The notes under the pieces were generated by a model, which did not search any database, was not told the DNA's origin, and saw only the letters and a program-made list of their open reading frames with translations. DNA of 30,685 nucleotides from a virus. Location of the stretch: positions 1 to 30,685 of IMG/VR virus record IMGVR_UViG_3300031688_000078, one strand, 5' to 3'. Of this stretch, positions 3-22,800 are shown one piece after another. A program made the translations under genes and the position numbers. Numbering within the stretch: position 1 is the first letter of the stretch; every line of letters starts with the position of its first letter.

Positions 3-944
3 ACGCACGGCAAGGTATACTTCGATGCGACCACCAAAGACCTTGGTGACATTATGATCCCGTCTATGCAGTCCATCGAGAAAGATGGTTGCGTACGTAT
101 GATCCCACATGAAGAGCTAGGCCTACACTTGGATGGGCCAATCATCCTGATGCTCGACGAGATTGGCAAGGCGAACCCCGCCGTGAAGAACGCCATGCTG
201 CGTCTCATACTCGAACGCAAAATTGGTAGTTACTCACTACACCCTGACAGCATTGTCTTTGCCACGACCAACAAAGGTAGCGAGGGTGTTGGTGACATGA
301 TACCGCCACACGCACGTAACCGTATGACTGTGGTGCAGATCAAGAAGACCAACAATATGGACTGGATCGAGTGGGGTATCAACAACGGGGTGGATCACAG
401 CTTACTTGGCTGGGTCAAAGACAATCCACACCTAATGGCATCGTTCGAAGACGTCAAAGACCCCGACGAGAACCCGTACATCTTCCACCCCAAGCAGCAA
501 CGTGCTGCGTTCGTTACTCCCCGTTCACTCGAAGCGGCGTCCGACATACTCAAGCGGCGTGAACACTTCGACGACATGACATTGACCGCAGCCTTGATGG
601 GTACGATTGGTGATCGTGGTGCGATGGACTTGATGGCGTTCGTATCACTGTCAGACCAACTGCCCACACTACAGGCGATCAAGGACGATCCCACCAACGC
701 AAAGGTGCCAAGCAGTGCCGCCGCAGTGTGTATGGTTGTGTATAGAACTCTAGCTGCGATGGACAAGGACTGGCTCAACAGTTGGATGGATTACTTGCCA
801 CGTCTCGACACCGAGGCACAGGCTATGTTCGCCAATGGGGTGCGATCACCCAAGTATTCTAAGCAGTCTATGGTGATGACTAACAAGAAGTTCACCGTGT
901 GGGCTATGAACAACAACCACCTCTACACCGCAGATAAGGTGTGA
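3..944 (+). CDS. MoxR-type AAA+ ATPase, 5' end cut by window edge
   Basis: The reading frame is open from the first base, so the Walker A half lies outside the window. Visible are a Walker B segment (ILMLDE, about nt 145-162), a sensor 1 segment (FATTN, about nt 258-272), an arginine-finger-like stretch (HARNR) and a sensor 2-like TPRSLE. This order fits the AAA_5/MoxR branch. MoxR ATPases normally work with a VWA-domain partner as a metal-dependent chaperone or remodelling pair, and such a partner starts at 1322. Automatic annotation often calls such phage pairs CobS/CobT cobaltochelatase subunits. Nothing here supports cobalamin chemistry, so MoxR is the safer name. A near-perfect copy of the window's recurring palindrome lies inside the gene at 226-240. 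The substrate is unknown. Confidence 0.8.
   Translation, partial: THGKVYFDATTKDLGDIMIPSMQSIEKDGCVRMIPHEELGLHLDGPIILMLDEIGKANPAVKNAMLRLILERKIGSYSLHPDSIVFATTNKGSEGVGDMIPPHARNRMTVVQIKKTNNMDWIEWGINNGVDHSLLGWVKDNPHLMASFEDVKDPDENPYIFHPKQQRAAFVTPRSLEAASDILKRREHFDDMTLTAALMGTIGDRGAMDLMAFVSLSDQLPTLQAIKDDPTNAKVPSSAAAVCMVVYRTLAAMDKDWLNSWMDYLPRLDTEAQAMFANGVRSPKYSKQSMVMTNKKFTVWAMNNNHLYTADKV
226..240. promoter_or_regulatory. recurring palindrome, copy 1 (one mismatch)
   Basis: GTAGTT-ACT-CACTAC, one base off the GTAGTG-N3-CACTAC consensus. It lies inside the MoxR gene, encoding G-S-Y-S-L. Confidence 0.55.
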
Positions 945-946
945 GC

Positions 947-1012
947 ATGAAAACGTATCGTAATGCTGTCATTGTGGCAGTAATCAGCAAGCAGGAGAAG
1001 ACTAATGGGTAA
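947..1012 (+). CDS. possible 21-aa leader-like peptide
   Basis: A very short frame starts 2 bases after the ATPase stop, has a purine-rich AAGGTG upstream, and its stop overlaps the start of the next gene at 1005. It would fill the 60-base gap and couple translation between its neighbours. The peptide has a hydrophobic middle (AVIVAVI) flanked by basic residues. No homology can be claimed. It may be only a chance frame. Confidence 0.25.
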   Translation: MKTYRNAVIVAVISKQEKTNG

Positions 1013-1316
1013 AAGATGGACAAAAGACGACGACGAGTTGTTGACGACAATGCACGGCGGAGGAGTAACGGCCTTTCTTATAAGTCTTGCCTTAGATCGC
1101 ACAGCGGGTTCAGTATCTCAACGTGCGTACGAATTGGGGATCACTACTAAGCGTAGGGTACGACTACCTATAGACCTGCCCGACCAGATGGTTGTGAAGT
1201 CTACCCATGTGAGGCTGTATGATTTTCCAGCCCCGCTACCACTACCTGCGGCCAGCGAAGAAACCCCGAAACCGTCAATGCTGGAACGCATGTTCAGCAA
1301 AATGTTAGGAAGGTAA
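1005..1316 (+). CDS. small Myb/GcrA-like DNA-binding protein
   Basis: This is a 103-aa protein. Its first 45 residues carry a tryptophan-led helix-turn-helix pattern (RWTKDDDELL ... GSVSQRAYELGI), like the start of GcrA-type or SANT/Myb-like domains. The rest is proline-rich and ends in a basic tail. GcrA is a cell-cycle transcription regulator of alphaproteobacteria, and phages often carry short relatives. The gene sits between the MoxR ATPase and the VWA gene in the same orientation. It is a candidate reader of the recurring palindromes found nearby, which is inference. It could equally be an unspecific phage HTH protein. Confidence 0.55.
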   Translation: MGKRWTKDDDELLTTMHGGGVTAFLISLALDRTAGSVSQRAYELGITTKRRVRLPIDLPDQMVVKSTHVRLYDFPAPLPLPAASEETPKPSMLERMFSKMLGR

Positions 1317-1321
1317 CAACA

Positions 1322-2524
1322 ATGTTTATGGCTAACCAATTAACAGAGGAGCAGCGGCTGACAAAAGCCGTTGTCTCCATCATGGGGAACCCGAAGTATA
1401 CCGCACTCGCAGGTGTACTAATGATCGGGAACCGCAACGTGGTCGATGACCCGTCCGTGCCAACTGCATGTACTAATGGACGTGACGAATACTATGGGCG
1501 TGAGTTCGTGAAGCAACTCAACGATGCAGAGCTTAGGTTTCTAGTACTGCACGAGGTGTATCACAAACTGTATCGCCACCTGACCACATGGCGGCACCTC
1601 TACGACCAAAATCCAGAGCTTGCAAACATAGCGTGTGACCACGTTATCAACATCAAGCTCGTGGACGACAACAAAGATAACTTCGCCAGCATGACAGGCA
1701 TACTCGCAAATGCATGCTATGACCGCCGGTATGTCGGTATGGATAGCGCACAGGTGTACAACTTGCTGCGTGAAGAGGGAGGCGACGACGGCAGTGGGGG
1801 TAGTGAGTCACTACCAAAAGGCTTCGATGTCCACGATTGGGAAAGCGCATCCGAAATGGACGCCGAAGAGGTACGAGAACTCGCACGGGAGATCGACGAG
1901 GCGGTACGTCAAGGCGCGTTGGTCGCTGGCAAGCTAGGCAGTGGTGGTGATCTGGGGCTGGAGGATTTACTTCAACCACAAATCAACTGGCGTGAATCCC
2001 TTCGTGAGTTCGTTCAAACCACCTGCGCAGGCAGCGACTACTCTACGTACAGCAAACCCAACCGCAGATACTTGTCGTCGGGAATATACATGCCGAGTGG
2101 TATCAGTGAACAGGTCGGGGAACTGGTATTGGCGATCGACACTTCGGGTTCGATTGGGCAGCAAGAACTCTCCGCGTTCCTCACCGAGGTCAAAGAGATA
2201 TGTGACACTGTACACCCTGAGCGTGTACGACTTCTCTACTGGGACACAAAGGTATGTCGTGACGAGAAGTATGACGTGCATGAACTAGATGGCCTAGTGA
2301 AATCAACCAAGCCGGCAGGCGGTGGTGGCACAAATGTAGAGTGCGTTACCGATTACATCCGCGACAACAACATCAACGCGCAAGCGGCTATCGTACTGAC
2401 AGATGGACACCTGTACGGTGGCTGGGGTCAGTGGACTATGCCTGTGCTGTGGTGTGTCATGGATAACGACAACGCCAAGCCTGATGTGGGCAAGACTGTA
2501 AACATCAAGTCAAGGGATATGTGA
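1322..2524 (+). CDS. VWA-domain protein with N-terminal DUF2201-like metallopeptidase motif
   Basis: This is a 400-aa protein. Residues 77-86 read HEVYHKLYRH, an HExxH zinc motif with a further His five residues on, as in the DUF2201 putative metallopeptidase domain. A VWA domain begins near residue 266. Its MIDAS site is complete: D273-x-S275-x-S277, T337 in a GGGGTN loop, and D361 in VLTDG. Between them is an acidic linker (about 150-200). VWA proteins with this layout are the usual partners of MoxR ATPases, and the partner gene is just upstream. The start at 1322 is preceded by GGAAGGT at good spacing; ATG 1328 is a poorer choice. A perfect copy of the palindrome lies inside the gene at 1800-1814. 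The biological target is unknown. Confidence 0.8.
   Translation: MFMANQLTEEQRLTKAVVSIMGNPKYTALAGVLMIGNRNVVDDPSVPTACTNGRDEYYGREFVKQLNDAELRFLVLHEVYHKLYRHLTTWRHLYDQNPELANIACDHVINIKLVDDNKDNFASMTGILANACYDRRYVGMDSAQVYNLLREEGGDDGSGGSESLPKGFDVHDWESASEMDAEEVRELAREIDEAVRQGALVAGKLGSGGDLGLEDLLQPQINWRESLREFVQTTCAGSDYSTYSKPNRRYLSSGIYMPSGISEQVGELVLAIDTSGSIGQQELSAFLTEVKEICDTVHPERVRLLYWDTKVCRDEKYDVHELDGLVKSTKPAGGGGTNVECVTDYIRDNNINAQAAIVLTDGHLYGGWGQWTMPVLWCVMDNDNAKPDVGKTVNIKSRDM
1800..1814. promoter_or_regulatory. recurring palindrome, copy 2
   Basis: GTAGTG-AGT-CACTAC, perfect; flanking G and C extend the symmetric arms by one. It lies inside the VWA gene, in the linker coding for S-E-S-L. Confidence 0.75.
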
Positions 2525-2525
2525 G

Positions 2526-2729
2526 ATGAGTAAGATGGGGAACTACGTTGTGGGCCTGCAAGAAGCGGTAGCAACTAGGGTCGATTGTCCTGAGTGTGAG
2601 GGCGAGGGCCAATGCACGTACGAAAAGTTCGTGCCTATGGGGTTTAGCAGAGACTACGGGGAGTGGGAGGACTACGTAACTCAATGCGATAACTGCAGGG
2701 GTTGCGGTAAGGTAGATGTTGATGAGTAG
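2526..2729 (+). CDS. DnaJ-type zinc-finger mini-protein
   Basis: This is a 67-aa protein with two CxxCxGxG-like knuckles, C21-x2-C24 (CPECEGEG) and C54-x2-C57 (CDNCRGCG). This is the pattern of the zinc-binding centre of DnaJ/Hsp40. There is no J domain, so it is a free-standing zinc finger, probably a protein- or nucleic-acid-binding adaptor. It starts 1 base after the VWA stop and is likely co-translated with it. That suggests a link to the MoxR-VWA pair, but this is inference. It is followed by about 147 bases without a gene, the longest gap in the left block. Confidence 0.65.
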   Translation: MSKMGNYVVGLQEAVATRVDCPECEGEGQCTYEKFVPMGFSRDYGEWEDYVTQCDNCRGCGKVDVDE

Positions 2730-2876
2730 TGGTGTGGGTAGCTGCGATAGTTCGTGTTGGCACATTTGGTAGCGCACGACCTCAACAACCAGACCCAACG
2801 GCACAGACATTAAGATTTACTACCCACTACAAGAACATAAAACATACCAACTAAGTTATCAATAGGAGACTATAAA

Positions 2877-3947
2877 ATGGCGCTAACATACTCAAATTTC
2901 AGTAGCTTCAAAGAAGTAGTGGATCACTACAATCGTATTAAACCACTGATTGGGAAGCTCAACGCTGGTAAGGACATCCGCCCTATAGGTGATCGTAACC
3001 GTAAGTTCGAGCGCATCATCAAGATCAGCAATAGCTGCTACGCGCTGTCAGACGGGTGGCACTTTGGCCTTGGCCCTTTCGGCTCTCTATATAGTGATAT
3101 AGACCACGGCCCCAATGCTCTAGAGAAATACGCACCTATTGTGTGGCGCAAGCTGCGCGATGGTAGAGACCAAGTAACCCTACGAAACGGGTGGGGTAGT
3201 GGAGGTCACAATAGTCGCTATGCTTTTTTAGACCGACACTCACCTCGTCCAATGAGGTTCTCTGTTGGTAGTGGCAAGCAGTACATGAACGTACATTCCT
3301 TTGGTGGTATACGTAACCATCACGAACATACGGCTCATCACTTCCTTGCAAAGGTACGCACTACGCCGAGGGCTGTATTGAAAGCGATGACCAGAGACAA
3401 GTCGTTCTTCCTAGCATCCGATGACAACTCCGCAGTTGTGTTCACGCGCAAGGGTAGCGACGACTGGGAGCATGTTGTGGGTACAGGTACGCAGGTGGCA
3501 CCCTCGCGAGTGGACAGGAAGACCAAGGCTAAGTTCAAAGAGGACATCCAGAAGTTATTCGAATGGGGCATGACTATGTCACCCCTGCTAATGCTAGAGG
3601 ATAGGGTTTACACCAGAAACCTAAATCAAGAAATGAGTGAGTGGATAAGTAACAGCAGGGAGCAAGGTGCGCCTTACCCGATGATCGGGCACACAGCTTG
3701 GCATGGTTCTAAGCTGCCATTATGTATGTCTTTGTATCGCAGCATTGTGCGCGACGAAGATCACCCTAAACGACTGCACCTATGGGTACAGTTTGCAAGG
3801 GACTGTATAGATAGGCGCACCCCTTACAGTTTTTATCCCCCTGATTTCCTTGTAAAGACCGTCGAGACCACGGAGGAGCTAGCTGCCGTACGGGCAAGAT
3901 ACAACACATTTATCAACAGAGAACTAGGTTTCTTAAACAGAAAATAA
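2877..3947 (+). CDS. hypothetical phage protein (356 aa)
   Basis: I do not recognise a domain. The protein is rich in His, Arg and aromatic residues, has no membrane segment and no signal peptide, and looks globular. A good TAGGAG ribosome site lies just before the ATG. One of the perfect palindromes (2916-2930) lies within its first 20 codons, where it encodes V-V-D-H-Y. It is followed by a similar-sized unknown gene at 3961. The two share a vague layout (a YAL segment, then an Ser-Val ... His-rich stretch, then a Lys/Arg-Ala helix), so they may be distant paralogs. Confidence 0.7.
   Translation: MALTYSNFSSFKEVVDHYNRIKPLIGKLNAGKDIRPIGDRNRKFERIIKISNSCYALSDGWHFGLGPFGSLYSDIDHGPNALEKYAPIVWRKLRDGRDQVTLRNGWGSGGHNSRYAFLDRHSPRPMRFSVGSGKQYMNVHSFGGIRNHHEHTAHHFLAKVRTTPRAVLKAMTRDKSFFLASDDNSAVVFTRKGSDDWEHVVGTGTQVAPSRVDRKTKAKFKEDIQKLFEWGMTMSPLLMLEDRVYTRNLNQEMSEWISNSREQGAPYPMIGHTAWHGSKLPLCMSLYRSIVRDEDHPKRLHLWVQFARDCIDRRTPYSFYPPDFLVKTVETTEELAAVRARYNTFINRELGFLNRK
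2916..2930. promoter_or_regulatory. recurring palindrome, copy 3
   Basis: GTAGTG-GAT-CACTAC, perfect, 40 bases into the gene at 2877. A lone half-site CACTAC occurs at 2825-2830 just upstream of that gene. Confidence 0.75.
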
Positions 3948-3960
3948 TTGGAGAGCAACT

Positions 3961-4842
3961 ATGTTAGAACTAGTATTAGTGTCAGAACTTAAAAACTCAC
4001 TAACGTCCTCAGGTGGCGAGAATATAGGCGTGATGGACATGGCGTCCGCGTTGAAGAGTAAAGTCCGTGGCCTATGCACGGCGCGGAAAGAAAATCATTC
4101 TTTGTGGGTATACCGCCCGAACGATACCTATGCGCTAGGCTGGATAACCTATGCCGACCTCATGGATAATGGCGATGGTAATGATCGCTATTCTGTATTC
4201 TCACCGAACATACTCAACGGCAAGTATAGTTGGGGAACTCGAGAGCATATGTCGAGCGCACTTAGCATGTCCAAAGCTGTTAAGAACGCAGAGAAATACC
4301 TACGTCCGCTAAATCTAGAGCAGGTCATTAGACAAGTGCATCGGGATTTTAGAACGAAACTAAGCGAGGTATCCTCGTCGATGGGTGCCAATTTGGTAGC
4401 ATTATCAAGCCCCCTGCGTACTGGATTCTTTAGTACATCCACGCACAAAGACGTACCTCCTAACGCGCTGCAGCTAGAACTCAAGCACCTATTACAGACG
4501 GACTACGTCTTTATTGACAAGGAGCTTGAAGAAACGCTACACAAGACGTTCGCCGAGAAAGACGAGTGGGAGGAGAGCAAGGGCCTCCTTGACACAGATC
4601 ATATGTTCATCGAAGCGTACCAAAGTGTAGGAGGGAGGCAGTTTTTTCGCGGGTACAACAAGGTGGCGAGATACGGGGCCAGCCAAGACCTGACACAACA
4701 TTTTTGTTACGATCAGGAAGAACTACCTGAACACATCAAGGGCGCGATCTCTGTGCTGTCGATGGTTGACGTAGGTCAGTATGTGGTTGGTGTAGGGTAT
4801 CGGGCTTCCGGTAATATGTTCTACATAAAGTCTGGATCGTAG
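3961..4842 (+). CDS. hypothetical phage protein (293 aa)
   Basis: This is a 293-aa soluble protein of unknown function, 13 bases after the previous stop and preceded by TTGGAGAG. The stretch around residues 78-118 (RYSVFSPNI ... KAVKNAEKYLRP) resembles a recurrent pattern in hypothetical proteins of marine phages as I remember them, with no function attached. It contains no recognisable catalytic motif. The next gene starts 1 base after its stop, so the set 2877-5101 is probably one transcription unit. Confidence 0.7.
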   Translation: MLELVLVSELKNSLTSSGGENIGVMDMASALKSKVRGLCTARKENHSLWVYRPNDTYALGWITYADLMDNGDGNDRYSVFSPNILNGKYSWGTREHMSSALSMSKAVKNAEKYLRPLNLEQVIRQVHRDFRTKLSEVSSSMGANLVALSSPLRTGFFSTSTHKDVPPNALQLELKHLLQTDYVFIDKELEETLHKTFAEKDEWEESKGLLDTDHMFIEAYQSVGGRQFFRGYNKVARYGASQDLTQHFCYDQEELPEHIKGAISVLSMVDVGQYVVGVGYRASGNMFYIKSGS

Positions 4843-4843
4843 T

Positions 4844-5101
4844 ATGGGGATGAGTGGAACCTACCGCGTTGCAATAGACCCCGTGACTAACAAGGTAGAG
4901 GTAATGTGTTTTGACGTAGAATTTCTTGTCGATCACAATGATATTGGCACCTACGACAGTATGAATGAGACCCCCCTCTGGATACAGGAACGTATTGCTG
5001 TCCTAATGATAACCGACCCAACCGTAAGGCCACTGCAAGATGTGGCTGGGGTGGGGCGTAGAATAGATAGATCAACGTATTGGGTATACCACCGACCGTA
5101 G
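4844..5101 (+). CDS. hypothetical small protein (85 aa)
   Basis: This is a small, slightly acidic protein with no recognised domain. It starts directly after the upstream stop (TAG-T-ATG), so it is probably translated by coupling; an in-frame ATG at 4850 is an alternative start. Its stop codon lies inside the palindrome at 5098-5112. The gene end and the regulatory site are therefore fused, and the transcription unit probably ends here. Confidence 0.55.
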   Translation: MGMSGTYRVAIDPVTNKVEVMCFDVEFLVDHNDIGTYDSMNETPLWIQERIAVLMITDPTVRPLQDVAGVGRRIDRSTYWVYHRP

Positions 5102-5112
5102 TGACCCACTAC
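5098..5112. promoter_or_regulatory. recurring palindrome, copy 4
   Basis: GTAGTG-ACC-CACTAC, perfect. It covers the stop codon of the 85-aa gene and directly precedes the iteron cluster. Confidence 0.8.
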
Positions 5113-5113
5113 C

Positions 5114-5163
5114 TTTAATTCGCCGTTTAATTCGCCGTTTAATCGCCGCGCATTTTTCGGCGA
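5114..5163. repeat. iteron-like 12-bp repeats plus hairpin
   Basis: TTTAATTCGCCG occurs twice head-to-tail (5114-5125, 5126-5137), followed by TTTAATCGCCG (5138-5148). The last unit forms a 6-bp stem TCGCCG / CGGCGA (5143-5148 with 5158-5163) around a loop containing five T. The tract is non-coding and alternates AT-rich and GC-rich steps. It could be a replication-origin element or a regulator array. Confidence 0.7.
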
Positions 5164-5215
5164 GTTAACAACACCAAACTACCGAGGCCAGTTACTACAA
5201 CAAAGGAGAAAATTA

Positions 5216-5554
5216 ATGGCGATGACACCAGAAGCTAAAGTTAAAAAGGTAGTGGCCCACTACCTAAAGACGCTGGGGGCGTACTACTTCTACCCTGCCA
5301 CAGGTGGTTTTGGGCGGAGCGGCGTACCTGACATAGTCGCATGCTACAAAGGAGTGTTCTTCGGCATCGAATGTAAGGCGGGGAAGGGTAAGACCACTGC
5401 ACTGCAACAGAAGAACTTAGCAGACATCCACGCTGCAGGAGGCTGCGATTGGGTCGTAAATGAAACGAACATGCACGACACAGCCACCGTGTTAGAATTT
5501 GAATCCCGTGTGGAACGCCAACGCGTCCGCGCTTCAATACACAAACAAAAATAA
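5216..5554 (+). CDS. VRR-NUC domain nuclease
   Basis: This is a 112-aa protein that matches a stand-alone VRR-NUC domain of the PD-(D/E)xK nuclease superfamily. The catalytic set is visible as GVPD (D39), an E52-C-K54 pair in FGIECK, and Q64 further on. Phage VRR-NUC proteins of this size are structure-specific nucleases thought to act on replication or recombination intermediates such as Holliday junctions or flaps. The start has a strong AAAGGAG upstream. A palindrome with 8-bp arms (5247-5265) is embedded in codons 11-17, and the iteron cluster lies just upstream. Confidence 0.85.
   Translation: MAMTPEAKVKKVVAHYLKTLGAYYFYPATGGFGRSGVPDIVACYKGVFFGIECKAGKGKTTALQQKNLADIHAAGGCDWVVNETNMHDTATVLEFESRVERQRVRASIHKQK
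5249..5263. promoter_or_regulatory. recurring palindrome, copy 5
   Basis: GTAGTG-GCC-CACTAC, perfect, and extendable to 8-bp arms (5247-5265). It lies in the first codons of the VRR-NUC gene, encoding V-V-A-H-Y. Confidence 0.8.
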
Positions 5555-5565
5555 GGATACTAGAT

Positions 5566-6135
5566 ATGGATACTATAGCAAAAAATACTTGTGATGTTTA
5601 CATCAAAAGCCAACTAGCAACGCATACCGGTTTTGGGATACGTGCCGACCTCGGGGAAGAAGTTTTTATTAACGCAGCGTTTATGAAGAAGTTTGACCTC
5701 AGGATTGATACCGTACGTAAACTAGTTCTTGCACCTAACCCTAACAGACCCAGCACACCATGGCAGGCTATAGGTATGTCTATGGATGATGCAGGGGCGC
5801 TAGTCGGCGAATTGGTCATGCAAGCTAGTGAAGACGGTGCAAGGCCGATTGAGTTGGGCATAGTGGATGCGGGGGAAGAACCTACCGCCCGTGTGCATAT
5901 CGCCAAGCTAGAAGATCGTATAGTAGAGATGTTCGATATTGAGTCTAACCAATTTGCCAGTACTGCTTCGACACTAGCAGTGGAAATGGACGTTAGTGAG
6001 GGGGAGATGCAGTTAGCACTTAGCCGCATGCACAACGCAGGGGAGATCGCCAAAGCGCAGGTGTTTGCTAAGGGGACTCAGGAGAAAGCCTCATTCGTTC
6101 TGTGGGCACGGGAAACAACTTGGTTCTCGCTGTGA
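5566..6135 (+). CDS. OB-fold-like plus winged-helix protein
   Basis: This is a 189-aa protein. Residues 20-60 (GFGIRADLGEEVFINAAF and following) resemble the beta-barrel core of cold-shock/OB-fold domains, which bind single-stranded nucleic acid. The C-terminal 75 residues (LEDRIVEMFD onward) are predicted from pattern to form a winged helix, with a recognition-helix-like stretch VSEGEMQLALSRMHNAG. The combination suggests a DNA-binding accessory factor for replication or early transcription. It follows the VRR-NUC gene by 11 bases and is coupled to the next gene. The assignment is from pattern only. Confidence 0.5.
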   Translation: MDTIAKNTCDVYIKSQLATHTGFGIRADLGEEVFINAAFMKKFDLRIDTVRKLVLAPNPNRPSTPWQAIGMSMDDAGALVGELVMQASEDGARPIELGIVDAGEEPTARVHIAKLEDRIVEMFDIESNQFASTASTLAVEMDVSEGEMQLALSRMHNAGEIAKAQVFAKGTQEKASFVLWARETTWFSL

Positions 6136-6332
6136 TGGAGCAATCTCTTTCTGGCAAAATGTCACCCGCCCATGAAGCAGAACGTAAATTCCTAACCCAG
6201 CAAGTAGATTTCTGGATGGAGGCGCAACTTAGGAGGGATGCGCCTCTGGATGCTAAGAACCAATATTGGAGAGCCAAAGAAGACTTAACTAAGTTTATAA
6301 GTAGTCGCCGCAAAGAAGGATATAAGATATGA
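6135..6332 (+). CDS. hypothetical small charged protein (65 aa)
   Basis: The ATG at 6135 overlaps the upstream stop as TGATG, which favours it over the in-frame GTG at 6102 that would overlap the upstream gene by 34 bases. The protein is helical and charged with no known domain. Its stop overlaps the next start as ATGA, so three genes in a row are coupled without spacing. Confidence 0.5.
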   Translation: MEQSLSGKMSPAHEAERKFLTQQVDFWMEAQLRRDAPLDAKNQYWRAKEDLTKFISSRRKEGYKI

Positions 6333-6835
6333 CCAAGAAAGAAGAACGTGTGTGGACGTACATACTTGCTAACCGCAAGGCAAGTTCTAGCCAAGTAGCT
6401 AAGGCAACGAGTACGGACGTGCAGTATGTCGAACGGGTTTTTGCAACCATATCCTCACCTAACTGGAGAGAAGAAATAAAAATGGACGAGTACTTGTATG
6501 GTGGCAAGGCTATTTTTACAAAGTCTGATGACGACAAGGCTCGGTATGATTTGCTACCACCAGAACTGCTTGAAGAGACAGCGCAAGTGCTTGCGTTCGG
6601 GGCTAAAAAATACAGCGACAACAACTGGGCGCAGGGTGCATCGTGGGGCCGGTATTTCAGCGCTTTGATGCGGCACATGTGGGCTTGGTGGCGGGGCGAG
6701 GATAACGACCCCGAGACGGGCTACTCGCATCTAGCACACGCTGCATGCTGCCTTGGGTTCCTTATGGCATATCAGCGGCGCAACATAGGCGAAGATGATA
6801 GGTTAAAGGGGAGCGCGACCGCATGTCAGGAGTAA
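6329..6835 (+). CDS. winged-helix fused to dATP/dGTP diphosphohydrolase N-terminal domain (DUF5664-like)
   Basis: This is a 168-aa protein. Residues 70-150 carry the family signature: K70-A-R-x-DLLPP, E-x-A-x-V, GAKKY, NW, RH, GED and HLAHA. I recognise this as the all-alpha NTP pyrophosphohydrolase-like domain annotated as dATP/dGTP diphosphohydrolase N-terminal (formerly DUF5664). Related MazG-like enzymes trim dGTP/dATP to monophosphates, and in some phages they serve the 2-aminoadenine (Z) pathway. Residues 1-50 look like a separate winged helix (SSSQVAKATSTDVQYVERVFATI). The ATGA overlap upstream and 13-base overlap downstream place it in the operon leading to the polymerase. No PurZ or DatZ is visible here. 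Confidence 0.65.
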   Translation: MTKKEERVWTYILANRKASSSQVAKATSTDVQYVERVFATISSPNWREEIKMDEYLYGGKAIFTKSDDDKARYDLLPPELLEETAQVLAFGAKKYSDNNWAQGASWGRYFSALMRHMWAWWRGEDNDPETGYSHLAHAACCLGFLMAYQRRNIGEDDRLKGSATACQE

Positions 6836-7179
6836 AAAAATCTATAACGAATAAAATAGTAGGGTTGTATGGGGCTGGGATGGATATCCCTGAAATAATA
6901 CGAACCATCAACGGCACGTACCCACAAGTCGCGTCTGCTATCAGGCGTTCGGATTTGTTTGTGGGTAGAGAAAAGCCACAGGTAACAAACCTAGAAGGTC
7001 TCAAACGCCGGTATAACATTACGACAGGTAGCATGGGTACGGCTTTAATAGCGAACTCTTCCCCTGAGGTATGGGTGTTCGCTGCCGAGCATACTCTTAA
7101 CAACGGGTACAACAATATGGCAGAGTACCTAATCGACCTCTTGGTAGAGGCATACTATGAGCAGGGAGGTAAAGGGTGA
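6823..7179 (+). CDS. small HTH-like protein (118 aa)
   Basis: The first 45 residues (KIVGLYGAGMDIPEIIRTI ... YPQVASAIRR) have the spacing of a helix-turn-helix of the resolvase/Trp-repressor style. The rest is helical and unassigned. It overlaps the preceding gene by 13 bases and its stop overlaps the polymerase ATG (TGATG). GGGGAG lies just upstream of its start. It could be a regulator of the replication genes; there is no direct proof. Confidence 0.5.
   Translation: MSGVKKSITNKIVGLYGAGMDIPEIIRTINGTYPQVASAIRRSDLFVGREKPQVTNLEGLKRRYNITTGSMGTALIANSSPEVWVFAAEHTLNNGYNNMAEYLIDLLVEAYYEQGGKG
7165..7170 (+). promoter_or_regulatory. ribosome binding site deciding the polymerase start
   Basis: GGAGGT lies 8 bases before ATG 7179. 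This supports that ATG over the adjacent in-frame GTG at 7176. Confidence 0.7.
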
Positions 7180-9005
7180 TGGACGTATATACACTCGACT
7201 TCGAGACGTACTACGATCAGGAGTACTCCTTGTCTAAGCTGACAACAGAGGCGTACGTGCGCGACCCGCGCTTCGAGGTGATCGGTCTCGCCATAAAGAA
7301 GAACGACAAGAAGACGAATTACACAAACGACCCTGCATTGATTGGACGTCTGTTATCCTACATAGACTTCTCTGACAGTGCTATCCTAGCGCAGAACACT
7401 ATGTTCGACGGGGCTATTCTAAGCTGGCGTTACAACGTCAAGCCTAAGTTGTGGCTCGATACGATGTGCATGGGTAGAGCTTTGCACGGAGTGGATCAAC
7501 CTGCGTCCCTTAGAGCCTTGTCTGAACGCTATGATATTGGCAAGAAGGGGTTTGAGGTACTTGCCGCCAAGGGTAAAAGGCCAGCCGATTTCACTGAAGA
7601 AGAAGCTAAGAAGTACGGGGAGTACTGCATCCAAGATGTTGAGCTAACGTACAAGCTGTTCAAGATCATGGGCGCTAAGTTTCCCCGACAGGAACTCAAG
7701 CTGATAGACGTGACCCTGCGTATGTTTATTGACCCCGTGCTTGATCTAGACCTTGGCCTATTGGAGCAGCACCTCGAAGATACACGGGAACGCAAATACA
7801 AACTCATGCGGGATGCGGGGGTGACGGATAAGAAAGAGCTTATGTCTAACCTCAAGTTTGCCACCATGCTACGAGAGCTTGGTGTAGAGCCGCCGATGAA
7901 GATCAGCCCGACAACAGGTAAGGAGACGTACGCCTTTGCTAAGAGCGACCAAGATTTTAAGGCGCTGCAGGAACATAACGATGATCTAGTACAATCTTTA
8001 GTAGCGGCACGTCTCGGGAACAAGTCCACCCTAGAGGAAACACGCACAGAGAGGTTTATAGGTATATCTAAACGTGGATTACTCCCGGTACCAGTAAGGT
8101 ACTATGCAGCACACACTGGTAGGTGGGGTGGTTCGGACAAGATCAACTTACAAAACCTACCTAGCCGTGGGCGTAATGGTAAGAAGCTGAAGAAAGCTAT
8201 CGTCGCTCCCGAAGGCTATAGCATTGTCGAAGCCGACTCCTCCCAAATCGAGGCACGGGTGCTGGCATGGTTCGCAGGGCAAGATGATCTTACCGCCGCG
8301 TTTACCCGAGGCGAGGATGTTTACGTCAAGATGGCCGCACGTATATACAACTGGGCCGAAGCCGAGGTTACCAAGGATCAGCGGTTCGTTGGCAAGTCCA
8401 CAATTCTCGGTGCAGGGTACGGTATGGGCGCGGTCAAGTTCCAAGCACAGCTGAAGGAGTTTGGGTACGAGGTGTCACTCGAAGAGGCACAAAGGATCAT
8501 AACCATTTATCGAGAGGCCAACTCCAAAATCAGCGATGTATGGAAAGAGGCCAACAACATGGTCAAGAACCTTGCCAAGGGCAGACCCATGTCATTCGGT
8601 AAGAGGGGTGTCATTTCAGTAGACGCTACGAACAACGCTATTATTGTGCCGAGTGGGCTGAGTATTTTTTACCCTGACTTGTACGGAGAGTGGTCTGATG
8701 GTGGGTTCGAGTACAGCTACAAAACGCGCAGGGGACGTAAGAAAATATATGGTGGCAAGGTCATAGAGAATGTGTGCCAAGCTATAGCCCGTTGTATAAT
8801 AGGCGAACAAATGCTACGTATTAACAAGAAATACAAGGTAGTGTTGACAGTCCACGACAGTATTCTATGCTGTGTGCCCGACGATGAGGTACACGAAACG
8901 CGCGCGTTTGTGGAGGCCAATATGCGGTGGACACCTGACTGGGCCGAGGGCCTACCTGTTAATTGCGAGAGCGGTTTTGGGAAATCATATGGAGAATGTG
9001 AATGA
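7179..9005 (+). CDS. polA: family A DNA polymerase with 3'-5' exonuclease
   Basis: This is a 608-aa replicative polymerase of the phage PolA type, lacking the 5'-3' exonuclease domain. The proofreading site is complete: D7 and E9 (DFE), D77 (FD) and D153 (Y149-x3-D). Polymerase motif A is D353-SSQIE358-AR, and motif B is R402-x3-K406-x3-L410-x3-Y414. Motif C is H559-D560-S561. Two positions are unusual. The residue matching E. coli Phe762 is Leu410, a class reported in virioplankton and linked to temperate or slow-replicating phages. Motif C has HDS instead of HDE. The stop overlaps the next gene as ATGA. It should act with the primase-helicase at 13728 and the binding protein at 12880. Confidence 0.95.
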   Translation: MDVYTLDFETYYDQEYSLSKLTTEAYVRDPRFEVIGLAIKKNDKKTNYTNDPALIGRLLSYIDFSDSAILAQNTMFDGAILSWRYNVKPKLWLDTMCMGRALHGVDQPASLRALSERYDIGKKGFEVLAAKGKRPADFTEEEAKKYGEYCIQDVELTYKLFKIMGAKFPRQELKLIDVTLRMFIDPVLDLDLGLLEQHLEDTRERKYKLMRDAGVTDKKELMSNLKFATMLRELGVEPPMKISPTTGKETYAFAKSDQDFKALQEHNDDLVQSLVAARLGNKSTLEETRTERFIGISKRGLLPVPVRYYAAHTGRWGGSDKINLQNLPSRGRNGKKLKKAIVAPEGYSIVEADSSQIEARVLAWFAGQDDLTAAFTRGEDVYVKMAARIYNWAEAEVTKDQRFVGKSTILGAGYGMGAVKFQAQLKEFGYEVSLEEAQRIITIYREANSKISDVWKEANNMVKNLAKGRPMSFGKRGVISVDATNNAIIVPSGLSIFYPDLYGEWSDGGFEYSYKTRRGRKKIYGGKVIENVCQAIARCIIGEQMLRINKKYKVVLTVHDSILCCVPDDEVHETRAFVEANMRWTPDWAEGLPVNCESGFGKSYGECE

Positions 9006-9676
9006 GCAAAGCAGCACCGTGGTCGTTTAGTCGGATCAAAGCATTCGAGCAATGCCCCAAGCAGTTTTACTATGAGAAAGTGCTGAAGCAGTACCCGTTC
9101 AAAGAGACTGAGGCCATGCTCTACGGTACAAATTTCCACAAGGCTTGTGAGGACTATATAGGTAAAGGTACTCCTATCCCTGAGAAGTTTGATTACATAA
9201 AGCCGGCACTGGATTCTTTGAACCGCAAGACGGGTGAGAAGATCGTCGAGCAGAAGCTGGGCCTGAACGCTGACCTAGAACCCTGCAGTTTCTTTGCTAA
9301 AGACGTATGGTTCCGTGGGATCGTCGATCTTGCAATCATAGACAAAGACACTGGGGTGGGTTGGATCGTTGACTACAAGACGGGCAAGTCTGCTAAGTAC
9401 GCAGACAAAGGCCAGCTTGAGCTTATGGCGTTGGCGATCTTCAAGCACTACCCTGAAGTAACTAAGTTACACGCGGGGCTGTTATTTGTAGTTGCCAAAA
9501 GCCTTGTGAAGTCTGAATATGAGGCCAGTTCTCAACAACCTTTATGGGGCAAATGGTTGGCGAACTATGCTAAGATGGAGAAAGCATTCGAGGTGGATGT
9601 CTGGAACCCTAGACCTTCTGGTCTGTGTAAACGCCACTGCCAAGTGGTTGAGTGCCCACATAATGGAGCTAACTGA
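9002..9676 (+). CDS. Cas4/RecB-like PD-(D/E)xK exonuclease with probable Fe-S cluster
   Basis: This is a 224-aa nuclease. The core motifs are visible in order: GTNFH46, GIVD109, IVD124-Y-K126-TGK and Q138. Four cysteines, C18 near the N-terminus and C209, C213 and C218 at the C-terminus, match the arrangement of the 4Fe-4S cluster in Cas4 and AddB-type nucleases. Phage members act as single-strand or recombination exonucleases during replication and repair. No CRISPR genes are nearby, so a Cas4 role in adaptation is not supported. The gene is coupled to the polymerase by a 4-base overlap. Confidence 0.85.
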   Translation: MSKAAPWSFSRIKAFEQCPKQFYYEKVLKQYPFKETEAMLYGTNFHKACEDYIGKGTPIPEKFDYIKPALDSLNRKTGEKIVEQKLGLNADLEPCSFFAKDVWFRGIVDLAIIDKDTGVGWIVDYKTGKSAKYADKGQLELMALAIFKHYPEVTKLHAGLLFVVAKSLVKSEYEASSQQPLWGKWLANYAKMEKAFEVDVWNPRPSGLCKRHCQVVECPHNGAN

Positions 9677-9960
9677 TGCCGTACAAAAACAAACCCCGCC
9701 CGTACAAAAAAGAGTATGAGCAGCAGAAAGCACGGGGGGAACACGAAGCCCGTATGGAACGCCAACGCGCTCGACGCAAGATGGATAAGTCTGGCAAAGA
9801 TGCCAACAAGAATGGTGTAGCTGACAAACGAGAGGGTAAAGACATCGCTCACAAGAAGGCGTTGAGTAAAGGCGGCAGCAATAAGAATGGAGTAACTGTC
9901 CAGAGCCGTAAGAAGAACCGCTCGGCTGGCGGTGCTATGAGCAGCCCCAATAAAAAATAG
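9676..9960 (+). CDS. basic HNH-like protein (94 aa)
   Basis: This is a very lysine/arginine-rich protein with a C-terminal stretch D-I-A-H-KKALSKGGSNKNG followed by SRKKNRS. That stretch resembles the end of an HNH nuclease (DxxH, then Asn, then a basic tail). The first beta-hairpin and cysteine knuckles of classical HNH proteins are not obvious, so it may be a reduced or inactive version acting as a DNA-binding protein. It starts on the upstream stop (TGATG), and its own stop abuts the palindrome at 9960-9974. Confidence 0.5.
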   Translation: MPYKNKPRPYKKEYEQQKARGEHEARMERQRARRKMDKSGKDANKNGVADKREGKDIAHKKALSKGGSNKNGVTVQSRKKNRSAGGAMSSPNKK

Positions 9961-9974
9961 TAGTGACTCACTAC
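9960..9974. promoter_or_regulatory. recurring palindrome, copy 6
   Basis: GTAGTG-ACT-CACTAC, perfect, in the 27-base gap between the HNH-like gene and the SNF2 gene. It ends 13 bases before the SNF2 ATG and next to the ribosome site, so a bound protein could block expression. Confidence 0.8.
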
Positions 9975-9987
9975 CACGGAGAACAAC

Positions 9988-11523
9988 ATGAAAATTTTGC
10001 GGGATAAAGCAATAATGCTGCGGGTACGTAACCCAAAGCAAATAACAACGGCTATCCCCAATAGCAAGGAGCTACCAATGAATAAGGTTATCGTGAAGTG
10101 GGGGATGGACGAAGTCTTATCCCTGAAGTCACTAAACATAAAAGTACCGTCACCGATTACGGGGCGGTATAGCTGGCCGGGGCAGTACAAACCCTTTGCC
10201 CACCAGAAAGACACCTCATCTTTTATGACCCTGAACAAGAAATCGTTCTGCTTTAACGAGCAGGGCACAGGGAAAACTGCATCGGCTATATGGGCAGCGG
10301 ATTACTTGATGACCCAAGGCAAAATTAAACGGGTGCTGGTTGTCTGCCCTTTGTCAATCATGGACAGCGCGTGGCGTAACGACTTGTTCTCCTTTGCTAT
10401 GCACCGAACTGTGGACGTAGCACATGGCAGCAAGGAGAAACGCAAAAAGATTATTAACTCGGGCGCTGAGTTCGTAATCATTAACTATGACGGTGTGGAA
10501 GTTGTGCGGGACGAGATCGCTGCGGGTGGTTTTGACCTGTTCATCGTCGATGAAGCTACGCACTATAAGAACGCACAAACAAAACGGTGGAAGACCCTCA
10601 ACAAGCTAGTCAAAGAAGACGATTGGCTATGGATGATGACAGGTACCCCTGCTGCACAAAGTCCTGTCGATGCCTATGGCTTGGCTAAGTTGGTAAACCC
10701 GCTTTCCGTCCCGAGGTACTTTGGCTCGTGGCGGGACATGGTTATGCAAAAGCTCACGCAGTTCACATATAAGCCGAAAGAGACAGCCAAAGACACGGTA
10801 CACCACGTACTGCAACCCGCGATTAGGTTTACTAAAGAGGAATGTCTTGACCTGCCTGACATAGTGTACACCAAACGCTTCGTCGAAATGACCGCGCAGC
10901 AGAAGAGGTACTACAACACACTGAAGAAGCAGATGCTCATGCAGGTGGCAGGGGAATCCGTAACCTCTGCAAACGCTGCGGTTAACATGAACAAGCTACT
11001 GCAGATTAGCGCGGGGGCAGTTTATACTGATGACGGTGACTCCGTAGAGTTCGATATCAAGAGCCGCTACCAAGCGTTGAAAGAAACTATCGACGAGAGC
11101 AGCCAGAAAGTTTTGGTCTTTGTGCCGTTCCGACACACTATCGACATGCTGACAAGGAAGCTGAAAGCTGACGGCGTTACTACGGAGGTCATACGGGGAG
11201 ACGTATCTGCAGCTAACCGCACAGATATATTCGCCCGCTTCCAGAACGATGCCGATCCAAGAGTTCTAGTAATCCAACCGCAGTCCGCTGCGCACGGTGT
11301 CACACTTACGGCGGCAAACACAATCGTGTGGTGGGGTCCGACCCCTTCCCTAGAGACGTATCTACAAGCTAACGCACGTATCCACCGTGCGGGCCAGAAG
11401 CATAAATGCACCGTAATCCAGATAGCTGGCTCCGCTGCAGAGAAGCGTATCTACAAGATGCTGGACCAGCGTATAAACGTACATTCCGCCATGATAGATT
11501 TGTACAAAGAAATGCTTGACTAA
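9988..11523 (+). CDS. SNF2-family superfamily 2 helicase/ATPase
   Basis: This is a 511-aa protein. Walker A is at EQGTGKT (91-97), the DExx box reads DEAT (188-191), motif III is TGTP (218-221), and motif VI reads ARIHRAGQ near 463-470. The VVCPLSIM and VLVFVPFR segments also fit. This is the compact phage SNF2 type, a double-strand DNA translocase that helps replication-fork or recombination processing. GGAG lies 7 bases before the ATG. The N-terminal segment LRVRNPKQI also looks family-typical, so 9988 is preferred over the in-frame ATG at 10078, although that start also has an AAGGAG. A perfect palindrome sits directly upstream, which suggests a regulated start point here. Confidence 0.9.
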   Translation: MKILRDKAIMLRVRNPKQITTAIPNSKELPMNKVIVKWGMDEVLSLKSLNIKVPSPITGRYSWPGQYKPFAHQKDTSSFMTLNKKSFCFNEQGTGKTASAIWAADYLMTQGKIKRVLVVCPLSIMDSAWRNDLFSFAMHRTVDVAHGSKEKRKKIINSGAEFVIINYDGVEVVRDEIAAGGFDLFIVDEATHYKNAQTKRWKTLNKLVKEDDWLWMMTGTPAAQSPVDAYGLAKLVNPLSVPRYFGSWRDMVMQKLTQFTYKPKETAKDTVHHVLQPAIRFTKEECLDLPDIVYTKRFVEMTAQQKRYYNTLKKQMLMQVAGESVTSANAAVNMNKLLQISAGAVYTDDGDSVEFDIKSRYQALKETIDESSQKVLVFVPFRHTIDMLTRKLKADGVTTEVIRGDVSAANRTDIFARFQNDADPRVLVIQPQSAAHGVTLTAANTIVWWGPTPSLETYLQANARIHRAGQKHKCTVIQIAGSAAEKRIYKMLDQRINVHSAMIDLYKEMLD

Positions 11524-11593: not shown

Positions 11594-11983
11594 ATGAGTG
11601 TGTCAGTTGATAAGCTAGTCAGTACGTACGCTAAGATACGTGACAAGCGTGCGGAAATATCCGCAAAATACAAAGAGGAAGAGGCCCAGCTTCGTGAAAT
11701 GCATGATAAGGTAAAGCTCGCTTTGCTGGAGTACTGCAAGGAGCATGAAGTCGATAGTGTTCGCACTGCATCGGGCCTCTTCTATCGTACCGTGAAGCAG
11801 CGTTATTGGACGAGCGATTGGGAATCTATGCATGCGTTTATTATGCAGCATAACCTTCCTGAGTTCTTCGAGAAGCGTTTAAACCAAACCGGTGTACGCC
11901 AGTTTCTTGAGGAAAACCCTGACAAACTACCCGCAGGTCTCAATGTAAATTCTGAGTATACAATTTCTGTGAGGAAAAAATGA
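11594..11983 (+). CDS. coiled-coil phage protein (129 aa), Gp157/Gam-like at best
   Basis: Residues 5-52 form an obvious charged coiled coil, followed by a compact alpha/beta part (RTASGLFYR ... WESMHAFIM ... LNVNSEYTISVRKK). The outline of an N-terminal coil plus a small C-terminal domain recalls phage Gp157 and Gam-type host-nuclease inhibitors, but no diagnostic motif is visible. CGGAG precedes the start. The 70-base gap upstream is AT-rich. The stop overlaps the next gene as ATGA. Confidence 0.55.
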   Translation: MSVSVDKLVSTYAKIRDKRAEISAKYKEEEAQLREMHDKVKLALLEYCKEHEVDSVRTASGLFYRTVKQRYWTSDWESMHAFIMQHNLPEFFEKRLNQTGVRQFLEENPDKLPAGLNVNSEYTISVRKK

Positions 11984-12183
11984 CAGAAGTAGATTCGAAG
12001 TATGTCAACATGAACCAAGTAGCGGATTACTTTAACCTGTCTCTGTCTACTATCCGCAAGTGGGTGCATACGGGGCATATCCCCTCCAGTGCCTACATCA
12101 ATATCGGGGAAGTTTACCGATTTCGGTTAGATGACGTTGAAGCAGCTTTGAATAAACAAGCTACAACAAAGGCCGAGGAGTAG
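11980..12183 (+). CDS. excisionase/MerR-type helix-turn-helix protein (67 aa)
   Basis: The protein matches the small HTH_17 pattern: NQVADYFNLSLSTIRKWVHTG as recognition helices, then a wing with RFRLDDVEAAL. Such proteins are excisionases or AlpA-type transcription activators. No integrase or attachment site is visible in the window, so a regulatory role is at least as likely as excision. The short ATGA overlap couples it to the coiled-coil gene. Confidence 0.75.
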   Translation: MTEVDSKYVNMNQVADYFNLSLSTIRKWVHTGHIPSSAYINIGEVYRFRLDDVEAALNKQATTKAEE

Positions 12184-12184
12184 T

Positions 12185-12880
12185 ATGTCAGGGGGCGGGT
12201 TAAACTATATCAGCCTACGTGGTGGACGTTTTAGTGGGATATTTAGTGGTGAACAGGCCAACGTCGAAAGTGATGGCCCGTTAAATATAATTATAGTGAA
12301 CGCTGCAAAGATATCTCGCGCTTACCACAAAGATTTATACGACCCAGCAACCCCCTCTGCCCCGACATGTTGGTCGCTGGATTCGCAGCTACCGTCCGGT
12401 GATGTTCCAGCAGACCAAAAGCAAGCTACCCGCTGTATGGACTGCCAACAAAACATTAAAGGTTCCAGCACTGGTGGGGGCCGCGCTTGTAGGTATTCGC
12501 AGCGCCTAGCTGTCGTATTGGAAGGGAAGATGGGTACAGTCTACCAGATGCGTATCTCTGCCACATCTATTTTTGGCAAAGCTCAGAAAGGTGATATGTC
12601 TTTGCAAGGGTACTCTAAGTATCTGCACAAGAACAAATCTTCCTCGCTGTCGGTAGTTACACAGGTACGTTTTGACAGGAAGTCTAACACACCTAAACTG
12701 TTTTTTAAGGCTGTACGTGCGCTCAACGAACAAGAACTTGGGAAGGCGCTCGAACAAAAAAGCAGCTATGCGGCAAGCATAACTGCGTTACAGACCATGA
12801 CGGTTCGATTAGAAACCGTAAGGGACAACTCTCCGTTTACAGAAGTAAGCGGTTTTGAATATAACAAAGGAGAAGACTAA
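12185..12880 (+). CDS. Cys4 phage protein of unknown function (231 aa)
   Basis: Four cysteines, C62, C84-x2-C87 and C102, could bind zinc or an iron-sulfur cluster in the N-terminal half. The second half is a regular alpha/beta domain (VYQMRISATSIFG, LSVVTQVRFDR). GAGGAG lies 4 bases before the ATG, and the stop overlaps the next start as TAATG. Its constant company with the single-strand binding protein and the primase suggests a replication accessory role. I cannot name the family. Confidence 0.6.
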   Translation: MSGGGLNYISLRGGRFSGIFSGEQANVESDGPLNIIIVNAAKISRAYHKDLYDPATPSAPTCWSLDSQLPSGDVPADQKQATRCMDCQQNIKGSSTGGGRACRYSQRLAVVLEGKMGTVYQMRISATSIFGKAQKGDMSLQGYSKYLHKNKSSSLSVVTQVRFDRKSNTPKLFFKAVRALNEQELGKALEQKSSYAASITALQTMTVRLETVRDNSPFTEVSGFEYNKGED

Positions 12881-19800: not shown

Positions 19801-22800
19801 TTCGCCGCTGTTATAGACGACGTCCGCTGCCATCTCCACGTACTCGGCACGTTTACTCGTTGGTACAGCTTTTACTGCGCTCTTGGCAATATTTAAGCTG
19901 CCTTTGGAAGTCCCCGATTCTAGCAATATGATAGAAGCGCCGCGTGTGGCAGGTGATGGAGCCAGCATGCCGTTGATAATGCTATCCACTTGGTCTAACA
20001 CTGACGTTTGGTTTTTTGGGCGCAGACCTATGAGCTTGCGCACAATGTTGCGCACTGCGCTGGTAAACTTCTCCCAGCCTGACATCTTGCCGTTGTCCAA
20101 CTTCAGCAGAGCTAGCGCACTCTGGAACTCGGGGTTGCTGAAGGCTTCGGCCACGAACTCATCGAGGCTACGGGTGCCGTATACATCGCCTAGTTCTTTA
20201 CGAACTGCCGTCAACAAGTTCTTCAACTGCATGGTTTCCGGTAGTAACGGATTTGCCAAAGACGCCGAGGTAGTAACGTGGGTCATCTCGTGCAGAACAG
20301 TATGCACGTTCATGCCATTAGCAGCGTCGATGTATATGGTGTTTGTTTCGGGTTCGAACATGCCGGCAGCTTTGCGCCCTACCATTTGCTGCAGATCATC
20401 GACCACTTGCACCTTTGTAGTGCCAACAACGGCGCTTAACTTCTTCGCTATCTGACGGATACGCGGTACAGGGTTTGTCCCTGCTATAGCAATCAGCACT
20501 GCTCTTATATTGTTATTACGCAAACCGTTTTTTGCATCAGGGAGCAGCTGATTATTTAGTCCCTGAACGGGGTCGAGTAAGAATAACTCTGCATCAAGGT
20601 CATAGCCTATTAGAGAATCGTCAAAGAACTCTACACCGTCATCTAGCAAAGTCGTATCGTCGGTTACAATTCGGAAGTCCTGCGCCTGCTTCTTCTGGTC
20701 GTAATCTTTTGCCGCATCGCGCTGATCCGTTTCTTGCTCTCTATTTTCGAGCCGTACCTCATCTGACAAGATAGCTTGGGACGTGCCCTTCCCATAAAGC
20801 TCCGAGTAAGTTTTTACGAGGCTATTTGCCTCCGGGGACAGGTTAGCTTCTATCCAGAGCCTAGCCGCAATCGCTTTCGGCTTAGTCTGGTCAAGGTAAA
20901 ATGCTTCTTCGTTTGTATTAACATTTTTTGCTGCGACCTCGTTCTTACCAAAACCTGTGCGGCTGAGAGCGCCTATTTGTGCTAAGGCAACATCGGGGCG
21001 GCGATACTTATTGAAGAACGCTACAGCCCCCTGCGCTTCCTTATTTTTATTGAGGCGTGCCGCAGGAGTATTTAATAGAGCTAGGATAGCCTCTTTGTCC
21101 GCTGCAGTTGTAGGGTCGGTTTCTGAGGTTTCTAAGAGCGCCTTACCCTCTTTACTCTCGTGAAATTCTCTAGCTTTTGCTAAAAGTTTTTTGTCCTCGG
21201 CAAAGAAACGTGCGTCCAGTGCCTGCTGTGCTTCCGCAGCTAAAACCGCTTGCGAACTATCCTGCGCGCCCATCATAGCATCATAAGGGTCAGGTGCGGC
21301 AGCTTCTGGTTCCGGCGCGGGACGCGGTGCATACATAGGGTCGTCAACAAGTCGAGGCTTGCCTGTCGGCTGCAAAGTCTGCTTATCTACGGGTACTTTG
21401 GTCCCCGGTATAAGTTGTCTTGCAGTGCCCCCTTGTACCGGCGTAATCGGCTCGGCGACGATTGCATCGACTTCTTGCTCGAGGGCTTCAACCGCCCTTT
21501 TTTCGTTGGCGGCGGCTACAAGTCTTTCGGCGGTTGCTTTATTTCTGGTAGGATCGTCAACTTGTGACGCCTCTAGTGTATCTGGGCCCCGTCCAGCTGG
21601 TCCTGCATCTCCGCTAGCACCCCGCAGATTATCTCCCACTGGTCCGGGGACAGGTGCTTCAGCGAGGTTGGGATCGTCAAGGTCGAGTTCGAGCTGTCCC
21701 ACGCCTCCTGCACCACTTGCATCGCCATCTCCAAGTCCGGCAGGTCTAGCTGTAGTTTTAGTTCCCAATCCGGCATTTGAGCCTCCTAATAACGCCGCGA
21801 CACGCGCCTCTATGTCTGGGTTTTTTTGAATGACCAAAGGGTTTTTTGCGTAGCTCTTTAATTTAGTTTTGACGTCAGACAGCTTTTTGCCGATCAAGTT
21901 ATTTTTATTCTCTGGGTCGCGGATTTTAGCCTTCGGTCTAACACCTAAATCGGCTAGCATCTCGTCGGTCACTACAGTAGACTCAACAGTAGGCTCAACA
22001 GTAGGCTCAACAGTAGGCTCAACAGTAGGCTCAACAGTAGGCTCAACAGTAGGCTCAACAGTAGGTTCTACAGTAGGCTCAACAGTAGGCTCGACAGTAG
22101 GCTCGACAGTAGGCTCAACAGTAGGCTCGACAGTAGGCTCAACAGTAGGCTCAACAGTAGGTTCTACAACCTTTGTCGGCATTGCCTCGTTAGCTGCTGT
22201 AAATAACTCACCTTGCTCCTGCCCCTGCCGTAGTTCTGGCCGCAGTAACGGGTCTTCGAGATTTAACTCTAGCTGCTCCGGTTCTACTGGCGAAGCTGCT
22301 ACGTCATCGGCTAAAAGTTCGTTAGCCTGAGCTTCTACCGCAGCTGCAGCTTCTTCCTCGGGGGTTAGTTTTGTAGTGGGTATGATCTCTTCTACAGTCC
22401 CACGTTCGCCGAAACCTGTGGCACGTACACCACCACCGATTAGACCGCCTGCAATGGCAGCTTCGCGGTATTCAGCAATAGCTTCATCACTATCAACTTC
22501 TAGCCCCGCCTGCGCACGTTCCATCATCTGCTGGCCGACTTCAGTCAAACTTTCAGTAGCAGCACCGCCGCCAAAACGAGAGGCTGTACGGACAAACAAA
22601 GACTTGCCGATTTTAGGCAGTACACCACCCAACAACAATTTGTCAGACACACCCTCAAGGAGTGCTTGGCCGAAAGTGGAGGTCAGCGCAGCGCTTACAT
22701 CAACACTTTCTTTTCTACCCGCAGCTACTTCGTCTTCCTGCCGCTGGATGTTGTTACCAAACAAGATCGGTGCCGAGACCAAAGCAGCAGCGCCTGCACC

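Follow-up and report, generated by a model that had tools for sequence, protein, structure and literature searches.

How does one short palindrome come to lie scattered over part of a viral genome, between genes as well as inside them, and which protein reads it? The question is raised by a 30.7-kb virus fragment, IMGVR_UViG_3300031688_000078 (30,685 nt; "the window" denotes this whole stretch), in whose first 10 kb a sequence-only reading had noticed repeated copies of GTAGTG-N3-CACTAC. The + strand of the window encodes an ATPase, a Myb-like protein, a DUF2201/VWA protein, an Hjc-like nuclease, a nucleotide pyrophosphohydrolase-like protein, DNA polymerase, an exonuclease, a helicase, an HTH_17 protein, a Gp2.5-like protein, and a primase; the - strand encodes a 2160-aa polyvalent protein, ejection-like proteins, an acetyltransferase, and an endolysin. 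A 12-bp unit, AACAGTAGGCTC, is arrayed at 21972-22187 inside the gene for the 2160-aa protein, where it encodes disordered repeats of the Pro-Thr type. By polymerase identity, no named phage is close (Rhizobium phage RHph_TM3_14A, 36%; Pseudomonas phage KPP25, 35%).

Distribution of the palindrome in the window

The five perfect copies and the copy with a single mismatch were confirmed (Table 1), as was their confinement to the first 10 kb, computed directly: farther right only two matches occur, at 15558 and 19039, with 2 mismatches each, which is the level of chance. The claimed excess over chance held equally well. With up to 2 mismatches allowed, the window contains 9 matches against 1.22 expected (maximum, 3 in 100 shuffles); in 200 first-order simulations the motif never appeared exactly, and no palindrome with 6-bp arms and a 3-base gap rose above 2 copies. 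GTAGTG makes up 5 of the 10 palindromes of that form in the real window. The copy at 9960 is the last of the series, which goes on leftward of the window, as seen in two related loci, L005 and L147; L147 is 98% identical to the left end of the window over 206 bases and 97.7% identical to L005 over 2.2 kb.

TABLE 1 Copies of the palindrome in the window and the genes in or beside which they lie
Feature	Position	Strand	Context or best matches
Hybrid palindrome GTAGTT-ACT-CACTAC	226..240		In ATPase gene; codons GGT AGT TAC TCA CTA C
Perfect palindrome	1800..1814		In DUF2201/VWA gene; variable low-complexity linker
Perfect palindrome	2916..2930		Near start of 2877-3947 gene (V V D H Y)
Perfect palindrome	5098..5112		Overlaps stop codon of 4844-5101; upstream of Hjc-like nuclease gene
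Perfect palindrome	5249..5263		Near start of Hjc-like endonuclease gene (V V A H Y)
Perfect palindrome	9960..9974		Overlaps stop codon of 9676-9960; 13 bases ahead of helicase start codon
ATPase gene, truncated by window edge; one site inside	54..944	+	phrog_1297, E 8e-44
DUF2201 metallopeptidase-like/VWA gene; one site inside	1322..2524	+	PF13203, E 6.8e-26; PF09967, E 5.5e-16
Hjc-like endonuclease gene; one site inside	5216..5554	+	phrog_93, E 1.2e-14; PF01870, E 3.5e-4 (just under the PF01870 cut-off)
DNA helicase gene; last palindrome at upstream junction	9988..11523	+	phrog_62, E 8.5e-114

Four palindromes at largely shared positions in related phages

A polymerase search in viral contigs gave 80 related loci. 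Those with polymerases 80-100% identical to that of the window carry the GTAGTG palindrome again, in up to 10 copies per locus, with the exception of L008/G002, which carry GTAGTT-N3-AACTAC. Loci at about 67% identity have GTTAGTG-N3-CACTAAC, and another set at about 65% has TCGGGCA-N2-TGCCCGA, each with 8-11 copies per locus. L044 (polymerase 65% identical) may represent a further type, in the style of TTTAGGG-N4-CCCTAAA, with 3 TTAGGG copies at a gap of 4. Within one genome the arms are constant and the spacers free; the spacing of the arms varies in a few loci (3 or 4 in L126 and L127; 5 in L128).

The positions of the sites are largely common to the lineages. From left to right, these are upstream of the first early-arm gene (X, see below), two to three sites behind X, and one behind the early promoter; the start of the DUF3150 gene, the DUF3150/ATPase junction or the interior of the ATPase gene, and the neighborhood of the VWA gene; and then the beginning of the gene after VWA or the position just ahead of it, and the junctions that precede the Hjc-like and helicase genes. 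The junction upstream of the Hjc-like gene (equivalent to 5098) has a site in all four palindrome lineages, and the helicase junction site (equivalent to 9960) is syntenic in the GTAGTG, GTTAGTG, and TCGGGCA lineages. In G001, a nearly complete relative of 60.5 kb, all 12 sites lie within 31603-45359; they are confined to the rightward early arm, between the divergence of terminase and early genes (31603) and the start of the helicase gene (45359).

Neither KPP25 nor Rollin showed the palindromes. Two records without palindromes, G013 and G014, carry no weight in either direction because these fragments do not include the X region. Relatives that conserve the genes and have lost the palindromes, which the sequence-only reading had named as evidence against its proposal, were looked for; near relatives showed the opposite, and in farther ones the palindrome had switched sequence.

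Selection on the sites as DNA

Amino acids differ between relatives where the change perfects the palindrome, which indicates selection at the DNA level and bears out the earlier claim that protein coding does not explain the copies. At the equivalent of the hybrid site at 226, three relatives (L108, L111, and L115) have a perfect GTAGTG palindrome, in which GTT or GCT (Val/Ala) takes the place of a Tyr codon that is otherwise widespread among the lineages, and G002/L008 have a perfect GTAGTT palindrome, in which TCA (Ser) is replaced by AAA (Lys). The equivalent of 2916 in the GTAGTT phage L008/G002 reads GTA GTT TAT AAC TAC, with Asn in place of His. The 1800 site is retained in GTAGTG lineages though the surrounding linker varies in length and sequence, and it is absent from this linker in the TTAGTG and CGGGCA lineages. 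In close relatives the 5249 equivalent takes a hybrid or perfect GTAGTT form; the switching is incomplete, and the VWA site of L117 is still GTAGTG.

Protein X and its covariation with the palindrome

Candidate readers were screened by comparing proteins between G001 and G002, close phages with differing palindromes. The three small DNA-binding proteins proposed from the window did not survive this comparison. The Myb-like protein at 1005 is only 28% identical to its counterpart in G001, which has the same palindrome, whereas the G001 and G002 counterparts, with different palindromes, are 80% identical; the excisionase-type (HTH_17) protein at 11980 is 93% identical between G001 and G002 despite their differing palindromes; and in G003, G005, and L015-L020, all of which retain the palindromes, the HTH protein at 6823 is missing its entire N-terminal (HTH) part. 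The protein encoded at 5566-6135 has a C-terminal winged-helix-like module that is swapped or lost between close phages (L011, G002, and G005). As a reader this module was also rejected: the GTAGTG phage L011 has the G002 version, and G005 is without it.

As judged from sequence comparison, the best candidate and likely reader is a protein of about 172-202 aa, here called X. It is encoded by the first early-arm gene, which lies outside the window and is immediately preceded by a palindrome. Searches with every X type gave the 40 loci used for the comparison, with 29 distinct proteins; at the site upstream of X, each of the four X clusters goes with its own one of the four palindromes, with 0 exceptions. 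The backbones of G001 and G002 are nearly the same (polymerase, 98% identity; terminase, 97-98%; portal, 97%), and BLAST finds no similarity between their X proteins, which accompany GTAGTG and GTAGTT, respectively. The X types nevertheless form one family (hhalign E 2e-7; G002 X was matched by profile at E 4.7e-7). In two mosaics with a G002-type X, L119 and L120, the X-proximal sites are GTAGTT and the distal ones mostly GTAGTG. The X of L147 (4557-5126, 189 aa), with GTAGTG sites around it, is the best stand-in for that of the window phage.

No recognizable DNA-binding domain was found in X by PHROG, PDB sequence, or fold searches: nothing in PHROGs was significant (none below E 0.04), no PDB chain matched below E 0.2, and Pfam gave no match for the X of G001 up to E 0.1. 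An AlphaFold2 model of the G001-type X (pLDDT 86) consists entirely of helices, one of them 31 residues long, and had no match above background in PDB and viral fold libraries, which does not prove a new fold; the model of the G002-type X is of low confidence (pLDDT 42). The X family profile matched no protein of the Rhizobium phage, KPP25, or Rollin.

Layout of the X region

The palindrome upstream of X is centered at about -54 to -60 relative to a sigma70-like X promoter predicted by consensus in G001, G002, and G005. Farther right, the best promoter of the form TTGACA-17-TAnnnT, likewise predicted by consensus, has the center of a palindrome at +56 to +65 in all five genomes examined (G001, G002, G005, G010, and G011). 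Behind X, a conserved CCAGT..GTAGC element comes after the palindromes, at a distance of roughly 10 bases or less where this was checked, and the tandem units so formed are spaced about 105-125 bp (L147, 5492-5720; G001, 32721-32900; G010, 12122-12450; G011, 28850-29070). Iteron-like repeats of AATGTTCC (or GGAACTT) occupy an AT-rich noncoding stretch (L147, about 5720-6000; G001, 32900-33240; also G011), which is a possible replication origin. In G001, G002, G010, G011, L128, and L147, the interval between terminase and X contains, ahead of the first palindrome, a GGATTAGTAATACATAGG-like stretch and then a G-rich tract; this arrangement is conserved although the X types differ. Rfam searches around X gave nothing above gathering scores.

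Discussion

The reading that we favor, with moderate confidence, is that the palindromes are dispersed double-stranded DNA sites for X and that X controls or shuts off early rightward transcription as an operator-binding repressor and roadblock. X would be made from the first early-arm gene and would bind, probably as a symmetric dimer that reads both arms with little regard to the 2-3 base spacer; recognition of duplex DNA is suggested because the arms are constant and the spacers free. The spacings of 3-5 in L126-L128 and of 5 or 6 in the Rhizobium phage are unusual for a rigid dimer and count against this reading, as does the result that X has neither a recognizable DNA-binding domain nor a clear fold match. 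The site just upstream of X would allow autoregulation, two to three sites would be bound in the noncoding, iteron-bearing stretch behind it and one some 60 bp past the predicted strong early promoter, and the remaining ones at gene junctions or within genes, at intervals of 1-5 kb up to the helicase. On these sites X may act as an autoregulated repressor and, in the manner of stoperators, as a block to elongation. The geometry of promoter and site, with further sites at junctions and in genes, fits a set of operators and roadblocks for the early arm. What the computations show is that the sites exist, that they are confined, that they are selected as DNA, and that X covaries strictly with their sequence; that X binds them, dimerizes, and acts as a roadblock or in shut-off is inferred. 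The earlier interpretation stands in that the palindrome marks the early or replication arm and in that a stoperator-like dispersed regulatory site is its best class; the readers that it proposed do not.

A role in organizing, replicating, or segregating the genome, in which X would bind the palindromes as DNA at an origin, at centromere-like sites, or for condensation, is in our judgment unlikely. It would account for the two to three tandem sites per genome beside the AT-rich, iteron-bearing noncoding stretch, for the coverage of the replication arm, and for the coverage of both arms in the Rhizobium phage. However, neither a ParB-family protein nor an integrase was detected in the fullest relatives, and control of transcription is a better fit for the site that every lineage has at +56 to +65 of its main early promoter and for the successive junction sites.

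We regard as quite improbable that the palindromes function as hairpins in RNA or in single strands, with X as an RNA-binding antiterminator or translational regulator, in the manner of lambda N and boxB. Lambda N is the product of the first gene of an early operon and diverges fast, and X is likewise first in its operon and fast-diverging; loops of 3-5 bases, of varying length in L126-L128, could allow hairpins, and many junction sites lie 10-25 bases ahead of the next start codon. Yet each genome has constant arms and free loops, with no compensatory stems: the innermost pair was broken in 16 of 16 distinct single-mismatch variants counted and replaced by G-U in none of them, although one G-U variant exists (G005, 13865). 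Moreover, the first site precedes even the promoter predicted for X, and the terminator-like sequence of X comes before the tandem sites. The variable spacing in L126-L128 and the tandem sites by the iteron-like stretch would nevertheless fit roles in RNA and in replication. The 3-base loops also prompted us to consider whether a virion RNA polymerase could use the sites as hairpin promoters of the N4 type, which was rejected; sites lie deep inside genes, and the 2160-aa protein matches a DarB-like/LPD39 polyvalent family, not an RNA polymerase.

That the palindrome is instead the target of a host protein, a restriction/modification system, or a nuclease, with lineage differences reflecting the hosts, is very improbable: X is tied to the sites by association only and the phages have no assigned hosts, but the palindrome sequence goes with X rather than with the phage backbone, the switch in the mosaics stops part-way along one genome, for which no host factor can account, and sites that are retained and improved are the opposite of avoidance.

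More tentatively, and as a proposition that we hold to fall somewhat short of probable, X would be a new all-helical DNA-binding family of virulent phages that carry out early shut-off by genome-wide palindromic roadblocks, with at least four specificities, and the sites would follow X by recombination near its gene and by point mutation farther away, even inside genes. A search of open-licence papers found no account of such a palindrome and X system. The relatives amount to a natural experiment in which a DNA-binding protein would change its specificity in step with its whole set of dispersed sites, with near-identical phages whose sites have switched, mosaics that are half-way, and coding sites that override amino acid conservation. 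As a candidate DNA-binding family with four readable specificities, X could be useful for deriving a recognition code and possibly as a source of orthogonal regulators, and the system points to roadblock-type control in apparently virulent Gram-negative phages.

Comparison with known systems

In six records, possibly incomplete and including the 60.5-kb G001, PF00589, PF00239, PF02195, and PF01381 (integrase, resolvase, ParB, and HTH_3) had no match, with positive controls; polymerase peptide patterns, which detect close relatives only, found no relative in bacterial genomes, so no prophage was seen. Together these results make a virulent lifestyle likely, though not proven, for this family of aquatic phages.

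Dispersed sites for one phage protein are known from other systems. The Streptomyces phage phiC31 has conserved inverted repeats bound by its c repressor, and the likeness lies in palindromic sites dispersed in the early region; phiC31 differs as a temperate actinophage, and its c repressor is not known to be related to X. N15 has dispersed centromeres with SopB, and P1 has scattered C1 operators; each thus has several dispersed sites for one DNA-binding protein. N15, however, uses a ParB-type protein, whereas a PF02195 match is absent here (from records that may be incomplete), and the C1 operators are asymmetric, unlike the palindromic sites here.

The stoperators of Cluster A mycobacteriophages such as L5 and Bxb1 are similar in that about 10-30 copies of a short site are dispersed per genome, often at gene borders (PMC6550527). 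Cluster A phages have 20-30 repressor sites per genome, mostly away from promoters, and these differ between subclusters together with the repressors (PMC6550527), as the site sequence here covaries with X. In contrast, Cluster A sites are asymmetric and oriented with transcription, whereas all four types here are palindromic; the Cluster A repressor has a helix-turn-helix domain, whereas PHROG, PDB sequence, and fold searches gave no clear match, HTH or other, for X; and Cluster A phages are temperate, whereas the six possibly incomplete records have no integrase or ParB match. Because site symmetry, protein, and apparent lifestyle differ, we do not file the X system as a Cluster A type.

The closest cultured relative by DNA polymerase, Rhizobium phage RHph_TM3_14A (MN988472; loci L142, L145, and L146), carries about 30 copies (up to 1 mismatch) of GTTACCT-N4-AGGTAAC genome-wide and shows arm spacings of 5 or 6. 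It is similar in that a G-rich stretch ahead of its first early gene has a site and differs in that both genome arms carry sites, those in the structural arm mostly at gene borders. The positional counterpart of X in this phage, QIG67493.1 (242 aa), is unlike X in sequence. The roughly 30 copies suggest that cultured phages share the phenomenon, the place of X being taken by a different and possibly unrelated protein.
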